64,000 nucleotides of DNA from Streptomyces sp. NBC_01255 (GTDB lineage Bacteria; Actinomycetota; Actinomycetes; Streptomycetales; Streptomycetaceae). Position numbers and translations under genes: made by a program. The notes under the pieces are model-generated. The model did not search any database, had not been told where the DNA came from, and was given only the letters and a program-made list of their open reading frames with translations. The DNA lies in NCBI RefSeq assembly GCF_036226445.1, contig NZ_CP108474.1, positions 5,580,001 through 5,644,000 on the forward strand, written 5' to 3'. Positions 34,338-47,021 of this stretch are shown in pieces (within the stretch, counting starts at the first letter, position 1; the number at the start of each line of letters is the position of its first letter).

Positions 34338-35264
34338 TCACACGCCGCAGGAGCGCAGAAAGCGCCGGGTGCGCAGCGCGATCGGGTACGGAGTGTCCGG
34401 CTCGCACGGGTACATGTCCTGCTCGACGATCGCGAAGAGGTCCACGTCCAGGGCCTGCGCGGCGGCGAGCACCGGCTCCAGGGCGGGCACCCCGGACGGC
34501 GGTTCGCACATCACGCCCCGCGCCACCGCCGGGCCGAACGGCACCTCCTCGGCCACCACCCGGGCCAGGACCTCCGGATCGACCTGCTTGAGGTGGAGGT
34601 AGCCGATCCGTTCCCCGTAGCTCTCGATCAGCTTGACGCTGTCCCCGCCGGCGTACGCGTAGTGCCCGGTGTCCAGACAGAGCGCGACGGCCTCCGGGTC
34701 GGTGGCGTCGAGGAAGCGCGTCACGCTCTCCTCGCCGTCGAGGTGGGTGTCGGCGTGCGGATGGACGACGAGCCGCAGCCCGTACCGCTCCCGTACCTCC
34801 CGCCCCAGCCGTTCCGTCAGACCGGTCAGATCCCGCCACTGCTCCACGGTGAGCGTGCGGTCCTCCAGGACCTCGCCCGTCCGGTCGTCACGCCAGAACG
34901 ACGGGATGACGACGAGATGACCGGCGCCCATGGCCTGGGCGAGGGCGGCGTTCTCGGCGACGTGCGCCCAGGTGCGGTCCCAGACGCCCGGTCCGTGGTG
35001 CAGCCCGGTGAAGACCGTCCCCGCCGAGACCCGCAGCCCGCGCCGCGCGGTCTCCTCCGCGAGGACGGCCGGATCGGTGGGCAGATAGCCGTACGGCCCC
35101 AGCTCGATCCACTCGTACCCCGCGCCGGAGACCTCGTCGAGGAAGCGCTGCCACGGCACCTGCCGGGGATCGTCGGGGAACCACACCCCCCAGGAGTCCG
35201 GGGCGGAGCCGATCCGGATACGGGACGGACGCGAGGGACGAGACGGACGCGACGGCTTCGTCAT
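34338..35264 (-). CDS. Inosose dehydratase/isomerase-like TIM barrel (IolE/IolI-like)
   Basis: About 308 residues of the xylose-isomerase-like TIM-barrel family, starting at the ATG at 35264 (another ATG lies 9 bp upstream). The N-terminus has four PSR repeats from a tandem DNA repeat, then RIRIGSAPDSWGVWF. Metal-ligand motifs are LRLVVHPHADTHL near residue 158, VALCLDTGHYAYAGGD near 188 and YLHLKQVD near 216, with a final Glu in AIVEQDM near 280. It is divergent from iolC-iolB-iolD-mmsA, so an inosose dehydratase (IolE) or isomerase (IolI) role is likely. The sequence alone does not decide which. Confidence 0.8.
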   Translation of the reverse strand: MTKPSRPSRPSRPSRIRIGSAPDSWGVWFPDDPRQVPWQRFLDEVSGAGYEWIELGPYGYLPTDPAVLAEETARRGLRVSAGTVFTGLHHGPGVWDRTWAHVAENAALAQAMGAGHLVVIPSFWRDDRTGEVLEDRTLTVEQWRDLTGLTERLGREVRERYGLRLVVHPHADTHLDGEESVTRFLDATDPEAVALCLDTGHYAYAGGDSVKLIESYGERIGYLHLKQVDPEVLARVVAEEVPFGPAVARGVMCEPPSGVPALEPVLAAAQALDVDLFAIVEQDMYPCEPDTPYPIALRTRRFLRSCGV

Positions 35265-35334
35265 GTCTGCCACCTTGGCCGGGGCCCGAGAGCAGCGTCA
35301 AGCGGGCGGGCGGACACATGGACAGGGCGTCCGA

Positions 35335-35346
35335 ATGTCCGGACAT
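35335..35346. promoter_or_regulatory. Palindrome ATGTCCGGACAT, candidate inositol-regulator operator
   Basis: Perfect 12-bp palindrome in the divergent iolE/iolC control region, just upstream of the -35 box of the iolC promoter. No iolR gene is in the window. Confidence 0.5.
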
Positions 35347-35350
35347 GTCG

Positions 35351-35380
35351 TTGACACGCCTCCGGGCGGCCGACTACACC
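35351..35380 (+). promoter_or_regulatory. Sigma-70-type promoter of iolC operon
   Basis: TTGACA (35351-35356), an 18-bp spacer and TACACC (35375-35380), 33 bp before the iolC start. The -35 box is perfect and the -10 is a fair match for the main sigma factor. Confidence 0.6.
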
Positions 35381-35412
35381 TGAGGGCGGGGCCGCAGGCG
35401 GAAGAGGGGCGC

Positions 35413-36390
35413 GTGGAGACGGAGCCGTACGACCTGATCACCATGGGGCGCCTCGGCGTGGATCTGTACCCGCTCCAGAGCGGCGTCGGGCTCGACCGCG
35501 TCGAGACCTATCGCAGGTTCCTCGGCGGCTCCCCGGCCAACGTGGCCGTGGCCGCCGCCCGGCTCGGCCGCCGTACCGCGCTCGTCTCCCGCACCGGCGC
35601 CGACCCCTTCGGCGCCGCGCTCCACCACGACCTCAAGCGCTTCGGCGTGGACGACCGCTGGGTGACCGAGGTCGCGGCGTACCCCACGCCCGTCACCTTC
35701 TGCGAACTCTTCCCGCCCGACGACTTCCCGCTCCACTTCTACCGCCTCCCCAAGGCCCCCGACCTGGAGATCCACCCGCACGAGCTCGACCTCGAAGCGA
35801 TCCGCGCCGCCCGGGTCTTCTGGGCGACCGGCACCGGCCTCTGCGCCGAGCCGAGCCGCACCGCGACCCTGGGCGCGCTGCGCGCCCGCGCCGGCCGGGA
35901 GGTGACGGTCCTCGACCTGGACTGGCGGCCCGTGTTCTGGACGGACCCGGCGGAGGCCCGCCCGTTCTACGCCGAGGCGCTGCGCCACGCGACCGTGGCC
36001 GTCGGCAACCTCGACGAGTGCGCGGTCGCGACGGGGGAGCGCGAGCCGTACGCCGCCGCCCGCGCGCTGCTCGCCACCGGCGCGGTCCGGCTCGCCGTCG
36101 TGAAGCAGGGACCCGCGGGCGTCCTCGCGCTCGCCGCCGACGGGACGGAGGCCGAGGTGCCACCCCTGCCGGTGGAGGTGGTCAACGGGCTCGGCGCGGG
36201 CGACGCGTTCGGCGGCGCGCTCGTCCACGGCCTCCTCGCCGGCTGGGACCTCGCACGGACCCTGCGCCACGCCAACGCCGCCGGCGCGATCGTCGCGGGC
36301 CGCCTCGCCTGCTCCCCCGCGATGCCGACCGCGGAGGAGATCGCCGAGGCGCTCGCGGCGGGTACGGGAACGATCCCGGAGAGAGGGTAG
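35413..36390 (+). CDS. iolC: 5-dehydro-2-deoxygluconokinase
   Basis: A 325-residue PfkB-family kinase that phosphorylates 2-deoxy-5-keto-gluconate in inositol breakdown. The GTG at 35413 (VETEPYDLITMGRLGVDLYP) follows GAAGAGGGG and matches the usual IolC opening; the frame is open upstream. PfkB signatures are GGSPANVAVAAARLG near residue 38 and NGLGAGDAFGGALVHG near 257, with the catalytic Asp in GAGD. First gene of the iolC-iolB-iolD-mmsA operon. Confidence 0.92.
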   Translation: METEPYDLITMGRLGVDLYPLQSGVGLDRVETYRRFLGGSPANVAVAAARLGRRTALVSRTGADPFGAALHHDLKRFGVDDRWVTEVAAYPTPVTFCELFPPDDFPLHFYRLPKAPDLEIHPHELDLEAIRAARVFWATGTGLCAEPSRTATLGALRARAGREVTVLDLDWRPVFWTDPAEARPFYAEALRHATVAVGNLDECAVATGEREPYAAARALLATGAVRLAVVKQGPAGVLALAADGTEAEVPPLPVEVVNGLGAGDAFGGALVHGLLAGWDLARTLRHANAAGAIVAGRLACSPAMPTAEEIAEALAAGTGTIPERG

Positions 36391-36399
36391 GGATCGGTC

Positions 36400-37230
36400 A
36401 TGAACTCCGGCCCCTCGCGCACCGAGCGCCTCCATCTGCCCTCCGGGTCCGCCGCCCGCGGTCCGTACGCGCTCCACATCGACCCCGACCGGGCCGGCTG
36501 GGCGCACTCCGCCCTCCGGGTCCTCACCCTCGGTCCGGGGGAGACCCTCGCCTTCGAGAGCGGGGATTCCGAATGGGTCGTGCTTCCCCTCGCCGGTGCC
36601 TGTAGCGTGCGCGTCGACGGCGAAGTCCTCGAACTCCTGGGCCGCGACAGCGTGTTCGCCGGAGTGACCGACTTCGCCTACGTACCGCGCGACGCCCACG
36701 CCCAGATCGCCTCCGGTGCGGGAGGCCGCTTCGCTTTGGCAGGAGCGAAGTGCGAGCGACGACTCCCCGCCCGCTACGGCCCCGCGCCGGAGGTTCCCGT
36801 CGAGACGAGGGGCAGCGGCAACCGCGCCCGCCAGGTGCGGAACTTCGCCGCGGCCGGCGCCTTCGCGTGCGACCGGCTGATCGCCGTCGAGGTCGTCACG
36901 CCCGGCGGCAACTGGTCCTCCTACCCGCCGCACAAGCACGACGAGCACCGCCCGGGCGCCGAGTCCGTCCTGGAGGAGATCTACTACTACGAGATCGCGG
37001 GCCCGCACGGACTCGCCTACCAGCGGATCTCGCCCTCCCGGCCCGGCGGCGCCGAGCTCCTCGCCGAGGTGAGGGACGGCGACGCCGTCCTCGTACCGGA
37101 CGGCTGGCACGGGCCGTCGATCGCCCAGCCGGGTCACGACCTCTACTACCTCAACGTCATGGCGGGCCCCGGAACCGAGCGGGAGTGGAAGATCTCCTTC
37201 CACCCGGACCACACGGAGGGATACGCATGA
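36400..37230 (+). CDS. iolB: 5-deoxy-glucuronate isomerase
   Basis: A 276-residue bicupin that converts 5-deoxy-glucuronate to 2-deoxy-5-keto-gluconate. The metal-binding cupin is visible as SSYPPHKHDEH near residue 180 and EEIYYYEI near 196, with DGWHGPSIAQ near 236. Length and motif order match IolB. It lies 9 bp after iolC and overlaps iolD by four bases (ATGA), so the operon is tightly coupled. Confidence 0.93.
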   Translation: MNSGPSRTERLHLPSGSAARGPYALHIDPDRAGWAHSALRVLTLGPGETLAFESGDSEWVVLPLAGACSVRVDGEVLELLGRDSVFAGVTDFAYVPRDAHAQIASGAGGRFALAGAKCERRLPARYGPAPEVPVETRGSGNRARQVRNFAAAGAFACDRLIAVEVVTPGGNWSSYPPHKHDEHRPGAESVLEEIYYYEIAGPHGLAYQRISPSRPGGAELLAEVRDGDAVLVPDGWHGPSIAQPGHDLYYLNVMAGPGTEREWKISFHPDHTEGYA

Positions 37231-39098
37231 GCATCCGGCTGACCGTCGCCCAGGCGCTCGTCCGCTTCCTCGCCGCCCAGTACACCGAGCGCGACGGGGC
37301 CCGGCAGCGGCTGATCGCCGCCACCTGGGGCATCTTCGGCCACGGGAACGTCGCCGGGATCGGCCAGGCGCTGGTGGAGGACCGCGACCTCATGCCCTTC
37401 CACCAGGGCCGCAACGAGCAGGCCATGGTCCACGCCGCCGTCGGCTACGCCCGCCAGTCGAACCGGCTCTCCGCGCACGCCGTCACCACCTCCATCGGCC
37501 CCGGCGCCACCAACCTCGTCACCGGCGCCGCCCTCGCCACGATCAACCACCTGCCCGTCCTGCTCCTCCCCGGCGACACGTTCGCCACCCGCCCCGCCGA
37601 CCCCGTCCTCCAGCAGCTCCAACTCCCGTACGCCGGCGACGTGTCGGTCAACGACTGCCTGCGGCCCGTCTCCCGCTACTTCGACCGGATCGGCCGCCCC
37701 GAGGCGCTGATCCCGGCCGCGCTCGCCGCCATGCGGGTCCTCGCCGACCCGATGGAGACCGGCGCCGTCACCCTCGCACTGCCCCAGGACGTCCAGGCGG
37801 AGGCGTACGACTGGCCGGCGGAGTTCTTCGCCGAGCGGGTCTGGCGGGTCCGCCGCCTCTCCCCGGACGAGGACGAACTGGACGCGGCGGTCGCGGCGAT
37901 CGGCACGGCCACCCGGCCGCTGATCGTCGCCGGCGGCGGCGTCCGGTACAGCGGGGCCGAGGAGGCGCTCCACGACTTCGCCGCGCTGACCGGCATCCCG
38001 GTCGCCTTCACCCAGGCCGGCAAGGGTTCGCTGTCGCACGACCACCCCCAGAACGTCGGCGGCATCGGCCACACCGGCACCGCCGTCGCCGACCACCTGG
38101 CCCGCACCGCCGACGTGGTCATCGGCGTCGGCACCCGCTGGACCGACTTCACCACCGCCTCGGGAACGCTCTTCGGCCACCCCTCCGTACGGTTCGTCAA
38201 CCTCAACATCGCCGCCTTCGACTCCCACAAGATGGCCGCGCTCCCGCTCGTGGCAGACGCCCGCGAGGGCCTGGAACAGCTCCACACACTCCTGGAGCCG
38301 CACCACGTCACCCCGCACTACGTGCACGAGTACGCCGAGGAGCGACTCCGCTGGCAGAGACGTGTCGACGCCGCCTACGCCGTCCCCGACGAGGACGCCC
38401 GGCCCACCCAGGTCCAGGTCCTCGGCGTACTCGACACTCTGGTCGACGGCAGCGACATCCTGATCAACGCCGCAGGATCGCTCCCCGGCGACCTCCACAA
38501 GCTCTGGCGGACCCGCTCCACGGACCAGTACCACGTCGAATACGGCTACTCCTGCATGGGCTACGAGATCCCCGCGGCCCTCGGCGTCCTGCTCGCGGCA
38601 CCCGGCCGGCCCGTCTGGGCGCTCGTCGGCGACGGGACGTATCTGATGAATCCCACCGAGATCGTCACCGCCGTGCAGGAGCGGCTGCCCCTGCGTCTCG
38701 TCATCCTGCAGAACCACGGCTACGCCTCCATCGGCGGCCTCTCGGAGGCCGTCGGCGCCGAGCGGTACGGCACCGACTACCGCCACCGGGACCCGGACGG
38801 CGGCTTCACCGGCGCGCCGCTCCCCGTCGACCTCGGGGCCAACGCCGCCTCCCTCGGCATGCGCGTGCTGCGCCCCCGCACCGTGCGTGACCTGCGAGAA
38901 GCCCTCGCGGACGCGCGGACCGCGACGGTTCCCACATGTGTCTACGTCGAGACCGAAACGGCAGACACAGTGTCGGGCCCGCCCCCGGCCCAGGCATGGT
39001 GGGATGTGCCCGTGGCCGAGACGTCGACCCGCCCGTCGGCGGTCAAGGCCCGCGAGGAGTACGACCGGCACGTCACCGCCCGACGCCGCCATCTCTGA
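37227..39098 (+). CDS. iolD: 3D-(3,5/4)-trihydroxycyclohexane-1,2-dione acylhydrolase (decyclizing)
   Basis: A 623-residue ThDP-dependent enzyme that opens the inositol-derived ring to 5-deoxy-glucuronate. The N-terminal ThDP domain has GRNEQAMVHAAVGYARQ (Glu near residue 62) and the C-terminal metal motif is GDGTYLMNPTEIV near 468, ending at LQNHGY. A typical IolD stretch is FGHGNVAGIGQAL near 36. The ATG overlaps the iolB stop. It makes the committed hydrolytic step in the pathway. Confidence 0.93.
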   Translation: MSIRLTVAQALVRFLAAQYTERDGARQRLIAATWGIFGHGNVAGIGQALVEDRDLMPFHQGRNEQAMVHAAVGYARQSNRLSAHAVTTSIGPGATNLVTGAALATINHLPVLLLPGDTFATRPADPVLQQLQLPYAGDVSVNDCLRPVSRYFDRIGRPEALIPAALAAMRVLADPMETGAVTLALPQDVQAEAYDWPAEFFAERVWRVRRLSPDEDELDAAVAAIGTATRPLIVAGGGVRYSGAEEALHDFAALTGIPVAFTQAGKGSLSHDHPQNVGGIGHTGTAVADHLARTADVVIGVGTRWTDFTTASGTLFGHPSVRFVNLNIAAFDSHKMAALPLVADAREGLEQLHTLLEPHHVTPHYVHEYAEERLRWQRRVDAAYAVPDEDARPTQVQVLGVLDTLVDGSDILINAAGSLPGDLHKLWRTRSTDQYHVEYGYSCMGYEIPAALGVLLAAPGRPVWALVGDGTYLMNPTEIVTAVQERLPLRLVILQNHGYASIGGLSEAVGAERYGTDYRHRDPDGGFTGAPLPVDLGANAASLGMRVLRPRTVRDLREALADARTATVPTCVYVETETADTVSGPPPAQAWWDVPVAETSTRPSAVKAREEYDRHVTARRRHL

Positions 39099-39112
39099 AG
39101 GAGCATTTCGTC

Positions 39113-40624
39113 ATGACGAACACCGTCAAGACTGTCAACCACTGGATCGGTGGCAAGGCCGTCGAGGGCACGTCGGGCAACTGGGGCCCGGTCACCGACC
39201 CGGCCACCGGCGCCGTGACCACCCGTGTCGCGCTCGCCTCCGTCGAGGAGGTGGACGCCGCCGTCGCCGCCGCCAAGGACGCCTTCGCGACCTGGGGCAC
39301 CTCGTCCCTCGCGCAGCGCACCACGATCCTCTTCAAGTTCCGCGCGCTGCTCGACGCCAACCGCGACGCGATCGCCGAGCTGATCACCGCCGAGCACGGC
39401 AAGGTCCACTCGGACGCGCTCGGCGAGGTCGCCCGCGGCCTGGAGATCGTCGACCTGGCCTGCGGCATCACCGTCCAGCTCAAGGGCGAGCTCTCCACCC
39501 AGGTGTCGAACCGCGTGGACGTCGCCTCGATCCGCCAGCCGGTGGGCGTCGTCGCGGGCATCACGCCCTTCAACTTCCCGGCCATGGTGCCGATGTGGAT
39601 GTTCCCGATCGCCATCGCGACCGGCAACACCTTCATCCTCAAGCCGAGCGAGAAGGACCCGTCGCCGTCCCTGAAGATCGCCGAGCTGCTCGCCGAGGCG
39701 GGCCTCCCGGACGGTGTCTTCAACGTCCTGAACGGCGACAAGGTCTCCGTGGACCGCCTCCTGGAGCACCCGGACGTCTCCGCGATCTCCTTCGTGGGCT
39801 CGACCCCGATCGCCCGCCACATCCACACCACCGCCTCCGCCAACGGCAAGCGCGTCCAGGCGCTCGGCGGCGCGAAGAACCACATGCTGGTCCTCCCGGA
39901 CGCCGACCTCGACGCGGCCGCCGACGCGGCCGTCTCGGCGGCGTACGGCTCCGCCGGCGAGCGCTGCATGGCGATCTCCGCGGTCGTGGCCGTCGGCTCC
40001 ATCGGCGACCAGCTCGTCGACAAGATCCGCGAGCGCGCCGAGAAGATCAAGATCGGCCCCGGCAACGACCCGACCTCCGAGATGGGCCCGCTCATCACGG
40101 CCGTCCACCGCGACAAGGTCGCCTCCTACGTCACCGGCGCGGCGGCCGAGGGCTGCGAGGTCGTCCTCGACGGCACGGGCTACACGGTCGAGGGCCACGA
40201 GGACGGCCACTGGATCGGCCTGTCCCTCCTGGACCACGTGCCGACCACGGCCGCGGCCTACCAGGACGAGATCTTCGGCCCGGTGCTCTGCGTGCTGCGC
40301 GCCGAGACGTACGAGGAGGGCCTCGCCCTCATCAACGGCTCGCGCTTCGGCAACGGCACCGCGATCTTCACCCGTGACGGCGGCGCGGCCCGCCGCTTCC
40401 AGATGGAGGTCGAGGCCGGCATGGTCGGCGTCAACGTGCCGATCCCGGTGCCGGTGGGCTACCACTCCTTCGGTGGCTGGAAGGACTCGCTCTTCGGCGA
40501 CCACCACATCTACGGCAACGACGGCGTGCACTTCTACACGCGCGGCAAGGTCGTCACCACCCGCTGGCCGGACCCGTCCGACGCCCCGGCGGGCGTGGAC
40601 CTGGGCTTCCCCCGCAACCACTGA
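39113..40624 (+). CDS. mmsA: Methylmalonate/malonate semialdehyde dehydrogenase (acylating)
   Basis: A 503-residue CoA-acylating aldehyde dehydrogenase (IolA/MmsA) that turns malonate semialdehyde from inositol, or methylmalonate semialdehyde from valine, into acetyl- or propionyl-CoA. The ATG at 39113 follows GAAGGAG. Catalytic Cys is in GSAGERCMAISA (near 284). NAD-binding motifs are LKPSEKDPS near 178 and SFVGSTPIARHI near 225. Its place after iolD points to a main role in inositol use. A strong terminator follows. Confidence 0.93.
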   Translation: MTNTVKTVNHWIGGKAVEGTSGNWGPVTDPATGAVTTRVALASVEEVDAAVAAAKDAFATWGTSSLAQRTTILFKFRALLDANRDAIAELITAEHGKVHSDALGEVARGLEIVDLACGITVQLKGELSTQVSNRVDVASIRQPVGVVAGITPFNFPAMVPMWMFPIAIATGNTFILKPSEKDPSPSLKIAELLAEAGLPDGVFNVLNGDKVSVDRLLEHPDVSAISFVGSTPIARHIHTTASANGKRVQALGGAKNHMLVLPDADLDAAADAAVSAAYGSAGERCMAISAVVAVGSIGDQLVDKIRERAEKIKIGPGNDPTSEMGPLITAVHRDKVASYVTGAAAEGCEVVLDGTGYTVEGHEDGHWIGLSLLDHVPTTAAAYQDEIFGPVLCVLRAETYEEGLALINGSRFGNGTAIFTRDGGAARRFQMEVEAGMVGVNVPIPVPVGYHSFGGWKDSLFGDHHIYGNDGVHFYTRGKVVTTRWPDPSDAPAGVDLGFPRNH

Positions 40625-40838: not shown

Positions 40839-43499
40839 ATGCGACTCCGACTTCCCCGGTGGGCCGCGGTCACCGCCGTCCTCGCCGTCCTCGCGGGTGC
40901 CGGCACCTGGACCGCCGTCGCCTCCGACGAACCGCCACCCGTGCAGCGCGCGGACAAGGCGCTCGACATCGACGGTGTACGGCTCGACACCTCGTACTTC
41001 ACGAGCGGCGGAGGGGAACGGCGCCCCGCCGTCCTCCTCGGCCACGGCTTCGGCGGCTCGAAGAACGACGTCCGCGCCCAGGCCGAACAGCTCGCCCGCG
41101 ACGGCTACGCCGTCCTCACCTGGTCCGCCCGCGGCTTCGGCGCCTCCACCGGCGAGATCGGCCTCAACGACCCCGACCACGAGGTCGCGGACGTCCGGAA
41201 ACTGATCGACTGGCTCGCGGCCCGCCCCGAGGTCCTCCTCGACAAGGCCGGCGACCCGCGCGTCGGCGTCACCGGCGCCTCCTACGGCGGCGCGATCTCC
41301 CTGCTCGCCGCCGGACACGACCCGCGCGTCGACGCCGTCGCCCCCCAGATCACCTACTGGAACCTCGCCGACGCCCTCTTCCCGAACGACGTCTTCAAGA
41401 AGCTCTGGGCCGGGATCTTCTTCTCGGCGGGGAATCAGGGGAACCAGCCGGGCACGGCCCCGGCCCCGACCCAGGCGGCGGACGGCTGCGGCCGCTTCAC
41501 CGCCGAACTCTGCTCCCTCTACCAGCGCGTCGCCGTCAGCGGAAAGCCCGACGCCGCCGCCCGCGCCCTCCTCGAAGCCCGCAGTCCCTCCGCCGTCGGC
41601 GCCCGCATCAAGGTGCCCGCGCTCATCGTCCAGGGCCAGTCCGACTCCCTCTTCACCCTCGCCCAATCCGACGCCATGGCCCGCACCCTCACCGCCAACG
41701 GCGCCCCCGTCGCCGTCGACTGGATCGCCGGCGGCCACGACGGCGGCGACCGCGAGACCGAGCGCGTCGAGCGACGGATCAGCACGTGGTTCGACCGCTG
41801 GCTGAAGCGCGACACCTCCGCCGACACCGGCCCCGCCTTCCGCGTCAGCCGCACCGGCGGCGTCGATTCCACGGACGGACAGGCCACCCTGCGCGGCGCG
41901 ACCGCCGACCGCTACCCGGGCCTCACCGCCGCCACCGAGTCCTTCGCGCTCGCCGGGCCCCCGCAGACCTTCGCCAACCCGGCCGGCGCCGCGCCGCCCG
42001 CCATCTCGGCCGTCCCCGGCCTCGGCGGCGGACTCTCCGGCCTCTCCTCCCTCGGCGTCGGCCTCTCCCTCGACTTCCCGGGCCAGTACGCCCGCTTCGA
42101 CGCGAAGCCGCAGACCGGCACCGTCCGGATCACCGGCACCCCGACCGTCCGCGTCAAGGTCACCTCGACCGCCGCCGACGGCTCCGCCGTCCTCTTCGCC
42201 AAGGTGTACGACGTCGGGCCCGACGGACGGCAGCAGGTGCTGCCCTCCCAGCTCGTCACCCCCGTCCGCGTCGAGGACGCCAAGGCCGGCCGAAGCGTCA
42301 CCCTTACGCTGCCCGCGATCGACCACGAGGTGGAGGCCGGGCACCGGCTGCGGCTCGTCCTCGCCGCCACCGACCTCGGCTATGCCTCCCCGACCGTCCC
42401 CGCCGGCTACACCGTCGCCGTCGAGGGCCCGCTCACCGTCCCGACCGCGCCCGGCCTCGACACCCAGGCCGCCACCCTGCCCTGGTGGGTCTGGGGCCTG
42501 CCGCTCCTCGGCCTCGCCGTCGCCGCGGCCCTCCTCCTGACCGCCCGCCGCCGCACCACGGCCCCCGCGCCGGACCCGGAACTCACCTCCGTACCCCTCC
42601 AGATCACCGGACTCTCCAAGAAGTACGCGGGCGGCGACCGGTACAGCGTCAAGGACCTCTCCTTCCGCGTCGAACAGGGCCAGGTCCTCGGTCTCCTCGG
42701 CCCGAACGGCGCCGGAAAGACCACCACCCTGCGCATGCTGATGGGCCTGATCCGGCCCGACGAGGGCGAGATCCGGGTCTTCGGCCAGGCCATCCGCCCC
42801 GGCGCCCCGGTCCTCTCCCGGGTCGGCTCCTTCGTCGAGGGCGCCGGCTTCCTGCCGCACCTCTCCGGCCGGGAGAACCTGGCGCTGTACTGGAAGGCCA
42901 CCGGCCGCCCCGCCGAGGACGCCCGCGTCGACGACGCCCTGCGGATCGCGAACCTGGGCAGCGCCCTCGAACGCGCCGTACGGACCTACTCGCAGGGCAT
43001 GCGGCAGCGCCTCGCCATCGCCCAGGCCATGCTCGGCCTGCCGGACCTGCTCATCCTCGACGAGCCGACCAACGGCCTCGACCCGCCGCAGATCCGCGAG
43101 ATGCGGGAGGTGATGATCCGGTACGCGGCCGAGGGCCGGACCGTCATCGTCTCCAGCCACCTCCTCGCGGAGGTCGAGCAGTCCTGCACCCACCTCGTCG
43201 TCATGGACCGGGGGCAGCTCGTCCAGGCCGGGCCGGTCGCCGAGATCACCGGTTCCGGCGACACCCTGCTCGTGACGCTGGCCGGAGAGATCGACGACCC
43301 GCTCGTCGAGAAGATCGGCGCCCTCCCGGGCGTCGGCTCCGCCGCCCGCGCCGACGGCGGGCTCCTCGTCCGCCTCGACGGCGCGGACGCCACCGCCCTC
43401 ATCGGCGACCTCGTCCGCCTGGACGTACCGCTGACCGGGGTCGGACCGCACCGGCGCCTCGAAGACGCGTTCCTGACCCTGATCGGAGGAGCCGCATGA
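40839..43499 (+). CDS. Fusion of exported alpha/beta hydrolase (X-Pro peptidase-like) with ABC ATPase
   Basis: An 886-residue protein of two unlike halves. Residues 1-30 hold a basic start and one hydrophobic helix (signal or anchor). Residues 45-300 form an alpha/beta hydrolase with GHGFGGSKND near 70 and GASYGGAIS (Ser near 147). Residues 390-540 are a beta-rich jelly-roll like the C-terminal domain of X-Pro dipeptidyl peptidase/CocE. A second helix WWVWGLPLLGLAVAAALLL lies at 549-567. The cytoplasmic ABC ATPase follows: Walker A GPNGAGKTT near 622, signature YSQGMRQR near 717, Walker B LLILDEPTNGLD near 737. The next gene is the permease. A link between extracytoplasmic hydrolysis and ATP-driven transport is implied; the substrate is unknown. 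Confidence 0.88.
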   Translation: MRLRLPRWAAVTAVLAVLAGAGTWTAVASDEPPPVQRADKALDIDGVRLDTSYFTSGGGERRPAVLLGHGFGGSKNDVRAQAEQLARDGYAVLTWSARGFGASTGEIGLNDPDHEVADVRKLIDWLAARPEVLLDKAGDPRVGVTGASYGGAISLLAAGHDPRVDAVAPQITYWNLADALFPNDVFKKLWAGIFFSAGNQGNQPGTAPAPTQAADGCGRFTAELCSLYQRVAVSGKPDAAARALLEARSPSAVGARIKVPALIVQGQSDSLFTLAQSDAMARTLTANGAPVAVDWIAGGHDGGDRETERVERRISTWFDRWLKRDTSADTGPAFRVSRTGGVDSTDGQATLRGATADRYPGLTAATESFALAGPPQTFANPAGAAPPAISAVPGLGGGLSGLSSLGVGLSLDFPGQYARFDAKPQTGTVRITGTPTVRVKVTSTAADGSAVLFAKVYDVGPDGRQQVLPSQLVTPVRVEDAKAGRSVTLTLPAIDHEVEAGHRLRLVLAATDLGYASPTVPAGYTVAVEGPLTVPTAPGLDTQAATLPWWVWGLPLLGLAVAAALLLTARRRTTAPAPDPELTSVPLQITGLSKKYAGGDRYSVKDLSFRVEQGQVLGLLGPNGAGKTTTLRMLMGLIRPDEGEIRVFGQAIRPGAPVLSRVGSFVEGAGFLPHLSGRENLALYWKATGRPAEDARVDDALRIANLGSALERAVRTYSQGMRQRLAIAQAMLGLPDLLILDEPTNGLDPPQIREMREVMIRYAAEGRTVIVSSHLLAEVEQSCTHLVVMDRGQLVQAGPVAEITGSGDTLLVTLAGEIDDPLVEKIGALPGVGSAARADGGLLVRLDGADATALIGDLVRLDVPLTGVGPHRRLEDAFLTLIGGAA

Positions 43500-44398
43500 G
43501 CGCGCCGACCACGAAGCCGACCGTCACGCCGACCACCACCGCGCCCCCGGCCGAGACGACCGCCCCCGGCTACCGGGCCGGCCGCACCCTGCCGCTGCGC
43601 GTCGAAGCCCTGCGTCAGTGGAAGCGGCGCCGCACCCTGGTCATGGGCGGGATCCTCGTCGCCCTACCCTTCGTCCTGATCGCCGCCTTCGCGATCGGCG
43701 GCGCCGGGGACGGCGACACCAACGGCCGGATCACGCTCATGGACACGGCGACGGCCTCCGGCGCCAACTTCGCGGCGACCTGCCTCTTCGTCTCGGCCGG
43801 TTTCCTCCTCGTCGTCCCCGTCGCCCTCTTCTGCGGCGACACCGTCGCCTCCGAGGCGAGCTGGTCCTCGCTGCGCTACCTCCTGGCCGCACCGGTGCCG
43901 CGCTCCCGGCTCCTCGCCTCGAAGCTGACGGTGGCCCTCGCGTACAGCGCGGCCGCGATGGTCCTCCTGCCGCTCGTGGCGCTCGCCGCGGGCACGGTCG
44001 CCTACGGCTGGGGGCCGCTCCAGCTGCCGACCGGCGGCTCCGTGCCCGCCATGGACGCGGTGCTGCGCATCGCCGTCGCCGTCGCCTTCGTGTTCGTCTC
44101 CCAACTGGTCACCGCCGGGCTCGCCTTCTGGCTCTCCACCCGCACCGACGCCCCGCTCGGCGCGGTGGGCGGCGCCGTCGGCCTGACCATCGTCGGCAAC
44201 GTCCTGGACGCCGTCACGGCGCTCGGCGACTGGCGCGAGTTCCTGCCCGCGCACTGGCAGTTCGCCTGGATCGACGCCCTTCAGCCGCAGCTGGAGTGGG
44301 GCGGCATGGTGAAGGGCGCGGCGATCTCGGTGACGTACGCGGTGATCCTCTTCGCCCTGGCCTTCCGGGGCTTCGCCCGTAAGGACATCGTGTCGTAG
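43496..44398 (+). CDS. ABC-2 type permease
   Basis: A 300-residue membrane protein with a Thr/Pro-rich N-terminal 25 residues and six helices: about 45-70, 95-118, 135-165, 185-205, 215-235 and 275-295. Segments such as SLRYLLAAPVPRSRLLASK are typical of ABC-2 permeases. The ATG overlaps the stop codon of the hydrolase-ATPase fusion (ATGA), so the two form one transporter in fixed ratio. Direction is probably export or membrane remodelling, as for most ABC-2 systems. Confidence 0.9.
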   Translation: MSAPTTKPTVTPTTTAPPAETTAPGYRAGRTLPLRVEALRQWKRRRTLVMGGILVALPFVLIAAFAIGGAGDGDTNGRITLMDTATASGANFAATCLFVSAGFLLVVPVALFCGDTVASEASWSSLRYLLAAPVPRSRLLASKLTVALAYSAAAMVLLPLVALAAGTVAYGWGPLQLPTGGSVPAMDAVLRIAVAVAFVFVSQLVTAGLAFWLSTRTDAPLGAVGGAVGLTIVGNVLDAVTALGDWREFLPAHWQFAWIDALQPQLEWGGMVKGAAISVTYAVILFALAFRGFARKDIVS

Positions 44399-44439: not shown

Positions 44440-45159
44440 CTACACCCACCCCCTCCGAGCCGCTTCCGCACCCGCGCGGAAGCGGCTCGTCGTGCCGAGC
44501 GCGGCCATCAGCTCTCCCACCCGGCGGCTGTACGTCCGCGCCGACATGCCGAGCCGGGCCGCCGCCGCCTCGTCCGTGAGCCCCGACAGGAGGGCGTCGA
44601 GGACCAGCCGCGACTGCGGCGCGAGGTCCAGCGGCGGGGGAGAGGGAGGCGGCACGTACGTCAGCTCCTCGGCCGCCGCCCAGCAGGCGTGATGCGCCCG
44701 GACGAGGGCCTGCACCACCACCGGGTCGCGGATCAGCAGCAGGCCGTTGTAGAGCAGCTCCAGATCGAGCGGGACCGCCGCCACCGTCCGGTCCACGACG
44801 ATCATTTTGAACGGGATGGCGTCCGCGAGCCGGGCCCGGCCGGGAATCCGCAGCCCGCTCTCGAGCCGGGGCAGGGCGTGCCGCGGCACGATCCGCCGGA
44901 CCTCGTCGGCCCGCTCCGCCGCGGCCCGCATGCACGCTCCCGCCAGCTCCAGGAACGGCCCGGGGATCGCGCAGCCCGCGGAGGCGACGGGGTCGTCGAA
45001 GGTCAGCAGCTCGTGCCGGGTGGAAGCGGCCAGCCCGGCGAGCGCGGCACTGATGCGCCGCGCGCCCCGGACCGGGCGCCCCGCGGGCCGCTGTCCCTCG
45101 GTCGCGGCCCGGTTCATCGCCGAACGGGCGAGCATCACGGAGCCCGCGCTCTCTGCCAC
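44440..45159 (-). CDS. LuxR-type helix-turn-helix regulator
   Basis: A 239-residue regulator. The C-terminal LuxR HTH reads LVLDALLSGLTDEAAAARLG then MSARTYSRRVGELMAALG, residues about 180-230. The N-terminal part resembles a truncated sensor region (HELLTFDDP, then LPRLESGLRIPGRARLADAIPFKMIVVD) common to Streptomyces orphan 'HTH-type' regulators, with no receiver Asp motif or P-loop. It starts at the ATG at 45159 and is divergent from a vWA lipoprotein gene 215 bp away. A hairpin lies inside its last 11 codons. Confidence 0.82.
   Translation of the reverse strand: MAESAGSVMLARSAMNRAATEGQRPAGRPVRGARRISAALAGLAASTRHELLTFDDPVASAGCAIPGPFLELAGACMRAAAERADEVRRIVPRHALPRLESGLRIPGRARLADAIPFKMIVVDRTVAAVPLDLELLYNGLLLIRDPVVVQALVRAHHACWAAAEELTYVPPPSPPPLDLAPQSRLVLDALLSGLTDEAAAARLGMSARTYSRRVGELMAALGTTSRFRAGAEAARRGWV
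44456..44489. terminator. 14-bp hairpin inside the 3' end of the LuxR-type gene
   Basis: Perfect stem CGAGCCGCTTCCGC / GCGGAAGCGGCTCG with a 6-nt loop. It lies within the coding end of the minus-strand gene and 57 bp after the stop of the convergent permease, so it probably ends the ABC transcript and overlaps coding sequence. Confidence 0.75.
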
Positions 45160-45374
45160 CGCTGACCACCCCCGCCCGATCGATGTCCACTAAATGTACG
45201 CATGCGACTGCACACGGTGACAACCCCTGTTGAAAAGGATGGCGAATCCATGCCACCCTCGTCCGCCCCCGTCGCCGTTGCCACATCGAGATCCATCCGC
45301 AACTCCTCCGACTGCTCCGTCCGGGCCCTTTGTTCGTCACATTCACAAGTGCCATACGAAGAGGGGGAGATGAC

Positions 45375-47021
45375 ATGAGTCGACAGAGCGCGGCGGCGAA
45401 CGGTCGCCGCAGGGCCCGGTTCAGGGCCGCGATCGCGGGGGTGCTCGTCGCAGGACTGGCCGTCGGCGGCTGTGGCGCGTCGGGTGAGAGGAGCGACGCG
45501 TCGCACGCGGAGAAGGGCCGCACCGCACCGGGCACCACCGGCGGCGGAGGGGCCACGAAGCCGGGGTACGTCGCCCCGGGAACGGCGAGCCCGGGGGCGG
45601 ACGCGGTCGCGCCCGACGAGGGCGAGCAGCGCACCAGGCCCCCCGCCCCCGACTACCTCTCCACCTTCGCCCTCGACGTGGACACCGCCTCGTACGGCTA
45701 CGCCCGCCGTTCCCTCGCCGAGGGCCGGCTGCCCGAGCCGACGACCGTGCGCCCCGAGGAGTTCGTCAACAGCTTCCGCCCCGACTACCCGCGCCCGGCG
45801 GACAACGGCTTCGGCGTGAGCCTCGACGGCGCCCGCACCGGCACGGACGGCTGGTCCCTGGTGCGGGTGGGGCTCGCCACCCGCGGCGCGGACCGGAGCG
45901 GCGCCCGCCCGCCCGCCGCCCTCACCTTCGTCGTCGACATCTCCGGCTCGATGGCCGAGCCCGGCCGGCTCGACCTCGTCAAGGAGTCCCTCCGGCTGCT
46001 CGCCGACGAGCTCCGCGACGACGACTCGTTCGCCCTCGTCACCTTCAGCGACGAGGCCGAGACCCGGCTGCCCATGACCCGCGTCGGAGAGGCCCGCGGC
46101 CGGATCCGCGAGGTCGTGGAGTCCCTGGCGACGACCTCGTCCACCAACGTCGAGGCCGGTGTCCGCACCGGTTACGACGTCGCCGTCGAGGGCCACCGCG
46201 AGGGCGCCACCAACCGGGTCGTGCTGCTCTCCGACGCCCTCGCCAACACCGGTGAGACCGACGCGGACGCGATCCTCGCCCGCATCGACGAGGAGCGCAG
46301 GGCCCACGGCATCACGCTGTTCGGCGTCGGGGTCGGCAGCGAGTACGGCGACGACTTCATGGAGCGGCTCGCCGACAAGGGCGACGGCCACACGACGTAC
46401 GTCTCCACCCCCGAGCAGGCCCGGAAGGTCTTCGTCGACCAGCTGCCCGCCCATGTCGAGCTGCGCGCCCGCGACGCCAAGGCGCAGGTGGCCTTCGACG
46501 CGCGGACCGTCGAGAAGTTCCGGCTGATCGGGTACGAGAACCGGGAGGTCGCCGACGAGGACTTCCGGAACGACCGGGTGGACGGCGGCGAGGTCGGCGC
46601 CGGCCACACCGTCACCGCGCTGTACGCCGTGAAGACCCGGTCCGGGGCGACGGGCCGCGTCGCCACCGCCACGGTCCGCTGGCTCGACCCGGCGACCCGG
46701 GCGCCGCACGAGCGCTCCGGCACGGTCGAGGTCGAGAAGCTCGCCAAGGGACTGTGGGACGGCGGCCACGACAGCCTCCAGCTGACCGCGATCACCGCCT
46801 ACTTCGCGGACGCGCTGCGCGGCGGCGACCTGCCGGGCGACCCCGGGCTCACGGCGCTCGCGGAGCGGGCGGAGGCGATCGCGGGACGGTCGGGATCGGC
46901 GGTGGTCCGGGAGCTCGCCGAGGCGGTCCGGCAGGCCGAACGGCTGCTCGGGCCGGCCGCGGGGCCGGGCGAAGGCGCTTCAGGGGAAGGCGAGTTGCGA
47001 TCGGGTGACCCATACAGCTAA
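45375..47021 (+). CDS. von Willebrand factor A domain lipoprotein (YfbK-like)
   Basis: A 548-residue exported protein. The ATG at 45375 follows GAGGGGGAGATGAC. The signal peptide ends in a lipobox LAVGGC near residue 34, so it is a lipoprotein on the outer face of the membrane. A Gly/Thr-rich linker leads to the N-terminal family domain (STFALDVDTASYGYARR) and a vWA domain with MIDAS motif VVDISGSMAEPG near 187 and VLLSDALANTGE near 283. A C-terminal DUF3520-like region follows. The family is widespread but its partner proteins are unknown. It faces a LuxR-type regulator. Confidence 0.87.
   Translation: MSRQSAAANGRRRARFRAAIAGVLVAGLAVGGCGASGERSDASHAEKGRTAPGTTGGGGATKPGYVAPGTASPGADAVAPDEGEQRTRPPAPDYLSTFALDVDTASYGYARRSLAEGRLPEPTTVRPEEFVNSFRPDYPRPADNGFGVSLDGARTGTDGWSLVRVGLATRGADRSGARPPAALTFVVDISGSMAEPGRLDLVKESLRLLADELRDDDSFALVTFSDEAETRLPMTRVGEARGRIREVVESLATTSSTNVEAGVRTGYDVAVEGHREGATNRVVLLSDALANTGETDADAILARIDEERRAHGITLFGVGVGSEYGDDFMERLADKGDGHTTYVSTPEQARKVFVDQLPAHVELRARDAKAQVAFDARTVEKFRLIGYENREVADEDFRNDRVDGGEVGAGHTVTALYAVKTRSGATGRVATATVRWLDPATRAPHERSGTVEVEKLAKGLWDGGHDSLQLTAITAYFADALRGGDLPGDPGLTALAERAEAIAGRSGSAVVRELAEAVRQAERLLGPAAGPGEGASGEGELRSGDPYS

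Follow-up and report, generated by a model that had tools for sequence, protein, structure and literature searches.

What would a bacterium gain from building an exported hydrolase and an intracellular ATPase as a single protein? The question is raised by a gene of Streptomyces sp. NBC_01255, located in a 64,000-nucleotide stretch of contig NZ_CP108474.1 (positions 5,580,001 to 5,644,000; hereafter the window, in whose own numbering coordinates are given). The original prediction described one chain with an alpha/beta hydrolase and jelly-roll, a transmembrane (TM) helix and an ATP-binding cassette (ABC) ATPase, coupled to a permease. This architecture is confirmed. The 886-residue protein scores above the Pfam cut-offs for Peptidase_S15 (residues 45-285), PepX_C (418-519) and ABC_tran (604-745), and the NCBIfam model CocE_NonD (TIGR00976) gives 106.5 bits against a cut-off of 66.3. 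The fusion chain stops at 43499; the permease runs on to 44398.

The exported part is a hydrolase with the cap and jelly-roll fold of the CocE/NonD hydrolases, as indicated by fold matches to PaL lipase (8yzn/8yzo) and cocaine esterase. It shares with these enzymes and with alpha-amino acid ester hydrolase the cap, the jelly-roll, the GxSYGG motif, the Asp and the His. While the solved members that were matched stand alone, the domain described here is tethered by a TM segment to an ABC ATPase and contains a conserved pair of cysteines in the cap. Pfam matches to S15 and PepX_C cannot separate a peptidase from an esterase. Among solved structures, those closest to the exported part are ester hydrolases of the lipase and cocaine-esterase types.

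An aimed search of the open-licence literature, in the portions of text that it covered, returned no description of an exported hydrolase-ABC ATPase fusion, which agrees with the earlier statement that no characterized example was known. Among the best 120 public matches listed per source, the names are "CocE/NonD family hydrolase", "alpha/beta fold hydrolase", "ABC transporter ATP-binding protein" and "ABC-2 type transport system ATP-binding protein". As each of these names covers one half only, the two-sided design is hidden.

Occurrence of the fusion

We inspected 79 loci, chosen because they matched (the window, L009-L030, L059-L098 and L189-L204). They comprise 70 frames with both domains, four ATPase-only genes and five hydrolase-only genes; L092 is counted as fused despite the first part of its hydrolase lying in another frame. 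The same architecture is found in the 70 loci at about 40-100% identity, far above chance. Fused loci occur both inside and outside the class, ten of them outside (L192-L201).

Within the genus, a strong family match (E ≤ 1e-186) was detected in 36 of 37 genomes, the window's own included. In this search, G031 gave weaker matches only (best 2.5e-54) and G008 matched over residues 383-885 only. An even sample of the class gave matches at E ≤ 1e-70 in 108 of 394 genomes, several of the alignments being partial, with hydrolase-only matches in G084 and G102 and an ATPase-only match in G136; for the genus, this sample lists 36 genomes with a match and four without. With another family member as the query, 23 of 296 genomes of a phylum sample matched at E ≤ 1e-60, and the matches in G645, G491 and G527 were ATPase-only. 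In a plasmid collection, two records span 80% or more of the query, one from Tsukamurella tyrosinosolvens and one from Nonomuraea gerenzanensis. The best 80 of 333 confirmed relatives in a species scan all carry actinobacterial titles. Judged by these sequence comparisons, the fusion is a large, old and conserved family. Some fusion-bearing genomes (L062-L064 and family f27) measure only 1.3-1.9 Mb.

A sequencing error that joined two proteins, or an accidental fusion private to one strain, would be the simplest way to explain such a chain. L092 (G282), where either an assembly error or decay has put the first part of the hydrolase out of frame with the remainder of the fusion, would fit this explanation. 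It is refuted by recurrence, with the fusion in one frame in 70 loci and family matches at E ≤ 1e-70 in 108 of the 394 genomes of the class sample; we give it virtually no chance, and the possibility of a frameshift raised earlier falls with it.

Conservation of active-site and ATPase residues

Residues were counted in 60 aligned fusions, with the free forms L059, L060 and L061 excluded. In the motif alignment L065, L089 and L023 were trimmed to their last 1000 residues, and the L092 row is a truncated gene call. The GASYGG motif occupies residues 146-151 of the window's protein and is intact, as had been claimed. The putative triad Ser148, Asp269 and His300, assigned by homology, is kept in 59, 60 and 60 fusions, respectively. 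The sole exception for Ser148 is L092, in which the GxSYGG motif is present in a frame different from that of the ATPase.

This conservation bears on the idea that the hydrolase fold is the recognition module of an exporter, like a lipoprotein partner, with catalysis secondary. Lantibiotic-type exporters do operate beside a membrane-associated binding lipoprotein, LanI, according to PMC5786555. Yet the presumed Ser/Asp/His triad would be needless for mere binding, and we regard a binding role as quite improbable.

An in-frame cap insertion of variable size is seen near residues 205-213 in L021, L022 and L023 (G036, G006 and G025) and also in G030 and G034. It may change the substrate range.

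All ATPase motifs had been described as intact. This holds for Walker A, the signature, Walker B and the H-loop of the window's protein, but the Q-loop Gln is replaced by Glu. The Walker A Lys, the signature Gly and the H-loop His are found in 60 of 60 fusions, and each of the two Walker B acids, Asp and Glu, in 59. Glu667 at the Q-loop position is likewise present in all 60. Four free relatives and a Bacillota relative also possess Glu there, and ten other ATPases have Gln (eight), Glu (one) or Asp (one).

Predicted membrane topology

Both hydropathy and the AF2 model place two hydrophobic helices in the window's protein (Table 1). A hydrophobic segment at the N-terminus was seen in 57 of the 60 aligned fusions. 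The TM segment between the jelly-roll and the ATPase exceeds the threshold in 59, and the 60th (L018) scores 1.56 against a threshold of 1.6. The flank after this segment is more positive than the one before it in 53 fusions, equal in six and less positive in one, with mean net charges of +2.40 and +0.03, respectively. The exported part contains exactly two cysteines in 58 fusions, three in one and none in one (L016), the conserved pair being gone together from this protein. Cysteines that are kept in pairs and lost in pairs probably form a disulfide, and therefore we believe that the exported part lies outside. Together with the N-terminal segment, the TM helix and the Arg-rich flank on the ATPase side, prediction strongly supports a hydrolase outside and an ATPase inside, as was first proposed, and nothing suggests that the two domains share a side.

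The linker from the TM segment to the ATPase spans 14-33 residues in 58 of 59 measured fusions and 108 in one. Such variability is more in keeping with a tether than with a rigid lever. In the Nonomuraea copy L030:9732-10055, the linker of about 108 residues is rich in Gly, Ser and Ala where shown, compared with about 20 residues usually.

The permease partner

The permease start overlaps the fusion end by the four bases ATGA, as predicted, and the two reading frames differ. A same-strand permease homolog lies directly downstream of the fusion in 70 of 70 fused loci. The spacing is within -30 to +400 bases in 67 of them, and the other three overlap by about 45-54 bases. Foldseek assigned the permease a NosY/ABCG2 fold with NosY as the best match, and NosF is among the best solved relatives of the ATPase. 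NosDFY contains an ABC-2 pair working with an exported protein, NosD, which is separate, periplasmic and not a hydrolase, whereas the exported part of the fusion family is covalently joined to the ATPase. A Pfam scan of the flanking genes found no separate NosD family, and a rough gene caller applied to 63 loci showed no conserved neighbor beyond the permease.

In NosDFY and FtsEX, an ATP-driven conformational change acts on an exported partner. The fusion could similarly act as a transmembrane machine built on one chain: the binding and hydrolysis of ATP in the cytoplasm would directly switch or power the exported hydrolase, opening or positioning it with the permease and the tethering helix as the transmission. 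The resemblance to NosY and NosF speaks for such a power unit, as does the finding that 70 of the 75 loci with a hydrolase encode it in the same chain as the ATPase. We consider this explanation unlikely.

Free halves and the origin of the fusion

A search for split versions of the two halves beside homologous permeases had been suggested. One side of it was productive: four loci (L059 and L189-L191) have a free ATPase-permease pair and no hydrolase match. The other was not, since none of the 79 match-selected loci has adjacent split hydrolase and ATPase genes. Five hydrolases that stand alone and appear to be secreted (L060, L061 and L202-L204) have no permease match. L202-L204 belong to the genus of the window, and L202 is from the same genome. 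This genome has seven PepX_C places; of the two inspected, that of the window is fused to the ATPase and that of L202 is free.

For both trees, 12 of 16 rows from the window's genus and two unrelated ATPases were left out beforehand, and two further fused rows were dropped by length from the hydrolase tree. In the hydrolase tree (61 rows), one branch with support 100/99 separates the fused set from the five free enzymes. The ATPase tree (70 rows) has the four free ATPases near an unresolved base, with three label changes and long outgroup branches. A single origin of the fusion cannot be read from this tree alone.

The fusion might be a matter of convenience, fixing the stoichiometry and location of a membrane-bound esterase and an exporter that serve the same response without exchanging substrate. 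The variable linker, the occurrence of both halves alone and their different evolutionary rates (median identity to the window's protein of 70 for the ATPase domain and 54 for the hydrolase domain) are all consistent with this. However, the lack of an adjacent split pair among the 79 match-selected loci and the separation of the fused set by a single branch of the hydrolase tree suggest that the one-chain state has long been maintained. We find mere convenience possible but doubtful.

No further fusion of an exported enzyme to a related ATPase was found in the six of 15 long-frame loci where a motif search located the frame. Five of these six have spurious-looking upstream readings, a start codon lying immediately ahead of the ATPase; L219 has almost no extension. 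The other nine loci were not matched by the motif search.

Comparison with peptide-antibiotic transporters

The fusion and its permease resemble the BcrAB and LanFEG ABC-2 exporters in combining an ATPase and a six-TM permease in an operon and in the replacement of the Q-loop Gln by Glu. Such an "E-loop" is characteristic of the BcrA/LanF group of peptide-antibiotic exporters. The terms E-loop and Q-loop have zero occurrences in PMC5786555. The same paper describes LanFEG as removing lantibiotics from the membrane, beside the membrane-associated LanI. LanFEG has two permease proteins, LanE and LanG, in contrast to the one permease gene found here, and its ATPase is not joined to an exported enzyme. 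The Bacillota relative adjoins two downstream permease genes in a LanFEG-like order. A lantibiotic cluster was not recognized beside the fusion. The fusion family perhaps works like LanFEG, yet we do not class it there because it fails both the model cut-off and the two-permease test.

The peptidase of the peptidase-containing ABC transporters (PCATs) is a cytoplasmic C39 domain fused to the TM domain, while the alpha/beta hydrolase of the fusion family is predicted to lie outside and is fused to the ATPase. At the locus, Pfam detects no C39 peptidase, and the TM domain is encoded by a separate gene. What the fusion family shares with PCATs such as PCAT1 and LanT is that a hydrolytic domain and an ABC motor are joined in one system (PMC13001449).

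Proposed function

We tentatively favor a two-gene ABC-2 exporter of the ABCG/NosFY-like type, with a tethered CocE-type ester hydrolase at the outer face that might process or destroy the extruded compound. The N-terminal segment would send the hydrolase outside, and helix 550-571 would return the chain to the inside and place the ATPase under the permease. As there is a single half-size permease gene, we infer that the complex is most likely a 2:2 assembly of fusion and permease chains, with two hydrolases over its outer mouth. The pump would extrude an amphipathic compound or lift it from the membrane. At the outer face, the tethered hydrolase would then cut an ester or amide in this compound, thereby either breaking it down and preventing its re-entry or maturing an exported product. 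We likewise infer the export direction, the esterase chemistry, the substrate hand-over and the coupling of hydrolysis to transport.

Several observations weigh against this exporter. The lantibiotic protection model TIGR03740 gives 171.1 bits, below its cut-off of 309.75 and tied with DrrA. The presence of the fusion in 36 of 37 and in 36 of 40 listed genomes of the genus disfavors the immunity of a single producer, and its distribution is patchy in small-genome relatives (12 of 61 in family f27). The Walker B acidic pair is missing from L024 in the alignment. The Foldseek E-values of the permease are weak (best 1.2e-3), and sequence searches of the PDB returned no permease relative, only chance matches with E of 0.12 and worse. 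Finally, the permease is the only conserved neighbor (63 loci, rough gene caller), hence no pathway can be read from context.

Features of the locus and neighboring genes

Table 1 Features of the fusion gene and its permease in the window.
Feature	Position	Strand	Basis
Fusion gene: exported CocE-type hydrolase, TM helix and ABC ATPase	40839..43499	+	886 aa, ATG start, Pfam/NCBIfam
N-terminal hydrophobic helix, residues 7-26, signal peptide or anchor	40857..40916	+	AF2 helix 7-26, hydropathy 9-27
Alpha/beta hydrolase domain with helical cap, about residues 45-310	40971..41768	+	Peptidase_S15, CocE_NonD, fold match
Ser148 in GASYGG, presumed nucleophile	41280..41282	+	Kept in 59/60 aligned fusions
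Cys217 and Cys225 in the cap, presumed disulfide	41487..41513	+	Each kept in 59/60
Asp269, presumed triad acid	41643..41645	+	Kept in 60/60
His300, presumed triad base	41736..41738	+	Kept in 60/60
Jelly-roll PepX_C, residues 418-519	42090..42395	+	Pfam over cut-off; fold matches span residues 31-539
TM helix, residues 550-571, then Arg cluster	42486..42551	+	Hydropathy 551-569, AF2 helix 550-571
ABC ATPase domain, residues 587-885	42597..43493	+	Pfam ABC_tran, motif counts, fold match
ATPase motifs: Walker A 621-628, Q-loop Glu667, signature 717-724, Walker B 737-742, H-loop His774			
ABC-2 permease, 300 aa, six hydrophobic segments	43496..44398	+	Pfam ABC2_membrane_4 and _2 over cut-off

Directly upstream of the fusion (35263..40624, + strand) lie inositol-type genes for a PfkB kinase, IolB, a thiamine pyrophosphate (TPP) enzyme and an aldehyde dehydrogenase. 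Genes for a TPP enzyme and for a dehydrogenase are each found again near the fusion in eight loci of the window's genus. On its 3' side, the permease is followed by an opposite-strand, convergent gene (44440..45159, - strand) that has weak helix-turn-helix matches at its C-terminal end and no Pfam match above the cut-off. A YfbK-type von Willebrand A protein with a lipoprotein-like start is encoded at 45330..47021 (+ strand) and is found near the fusion in eight loci of the genus. A defence system was rejected as a candidate: the PADLOC matches of the fusion are confined to its ATPase part, and the permease gives none.

Biological implications

The fusion occurs in most of the genomes searched of Streptomyces, a genus that makes many drugs. 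Other actinobacteria carry it too, some of them with very small genomes. Should the outer enzyme act on the pumped compound, the protein would be a built-in export-and-process or export-and-destroy device. If instead ATP controls the enzyme, it would represent a new way of running chemistry outside the cell. The natural halves without a partner are ready controls, which makes both possibilities directly testable.
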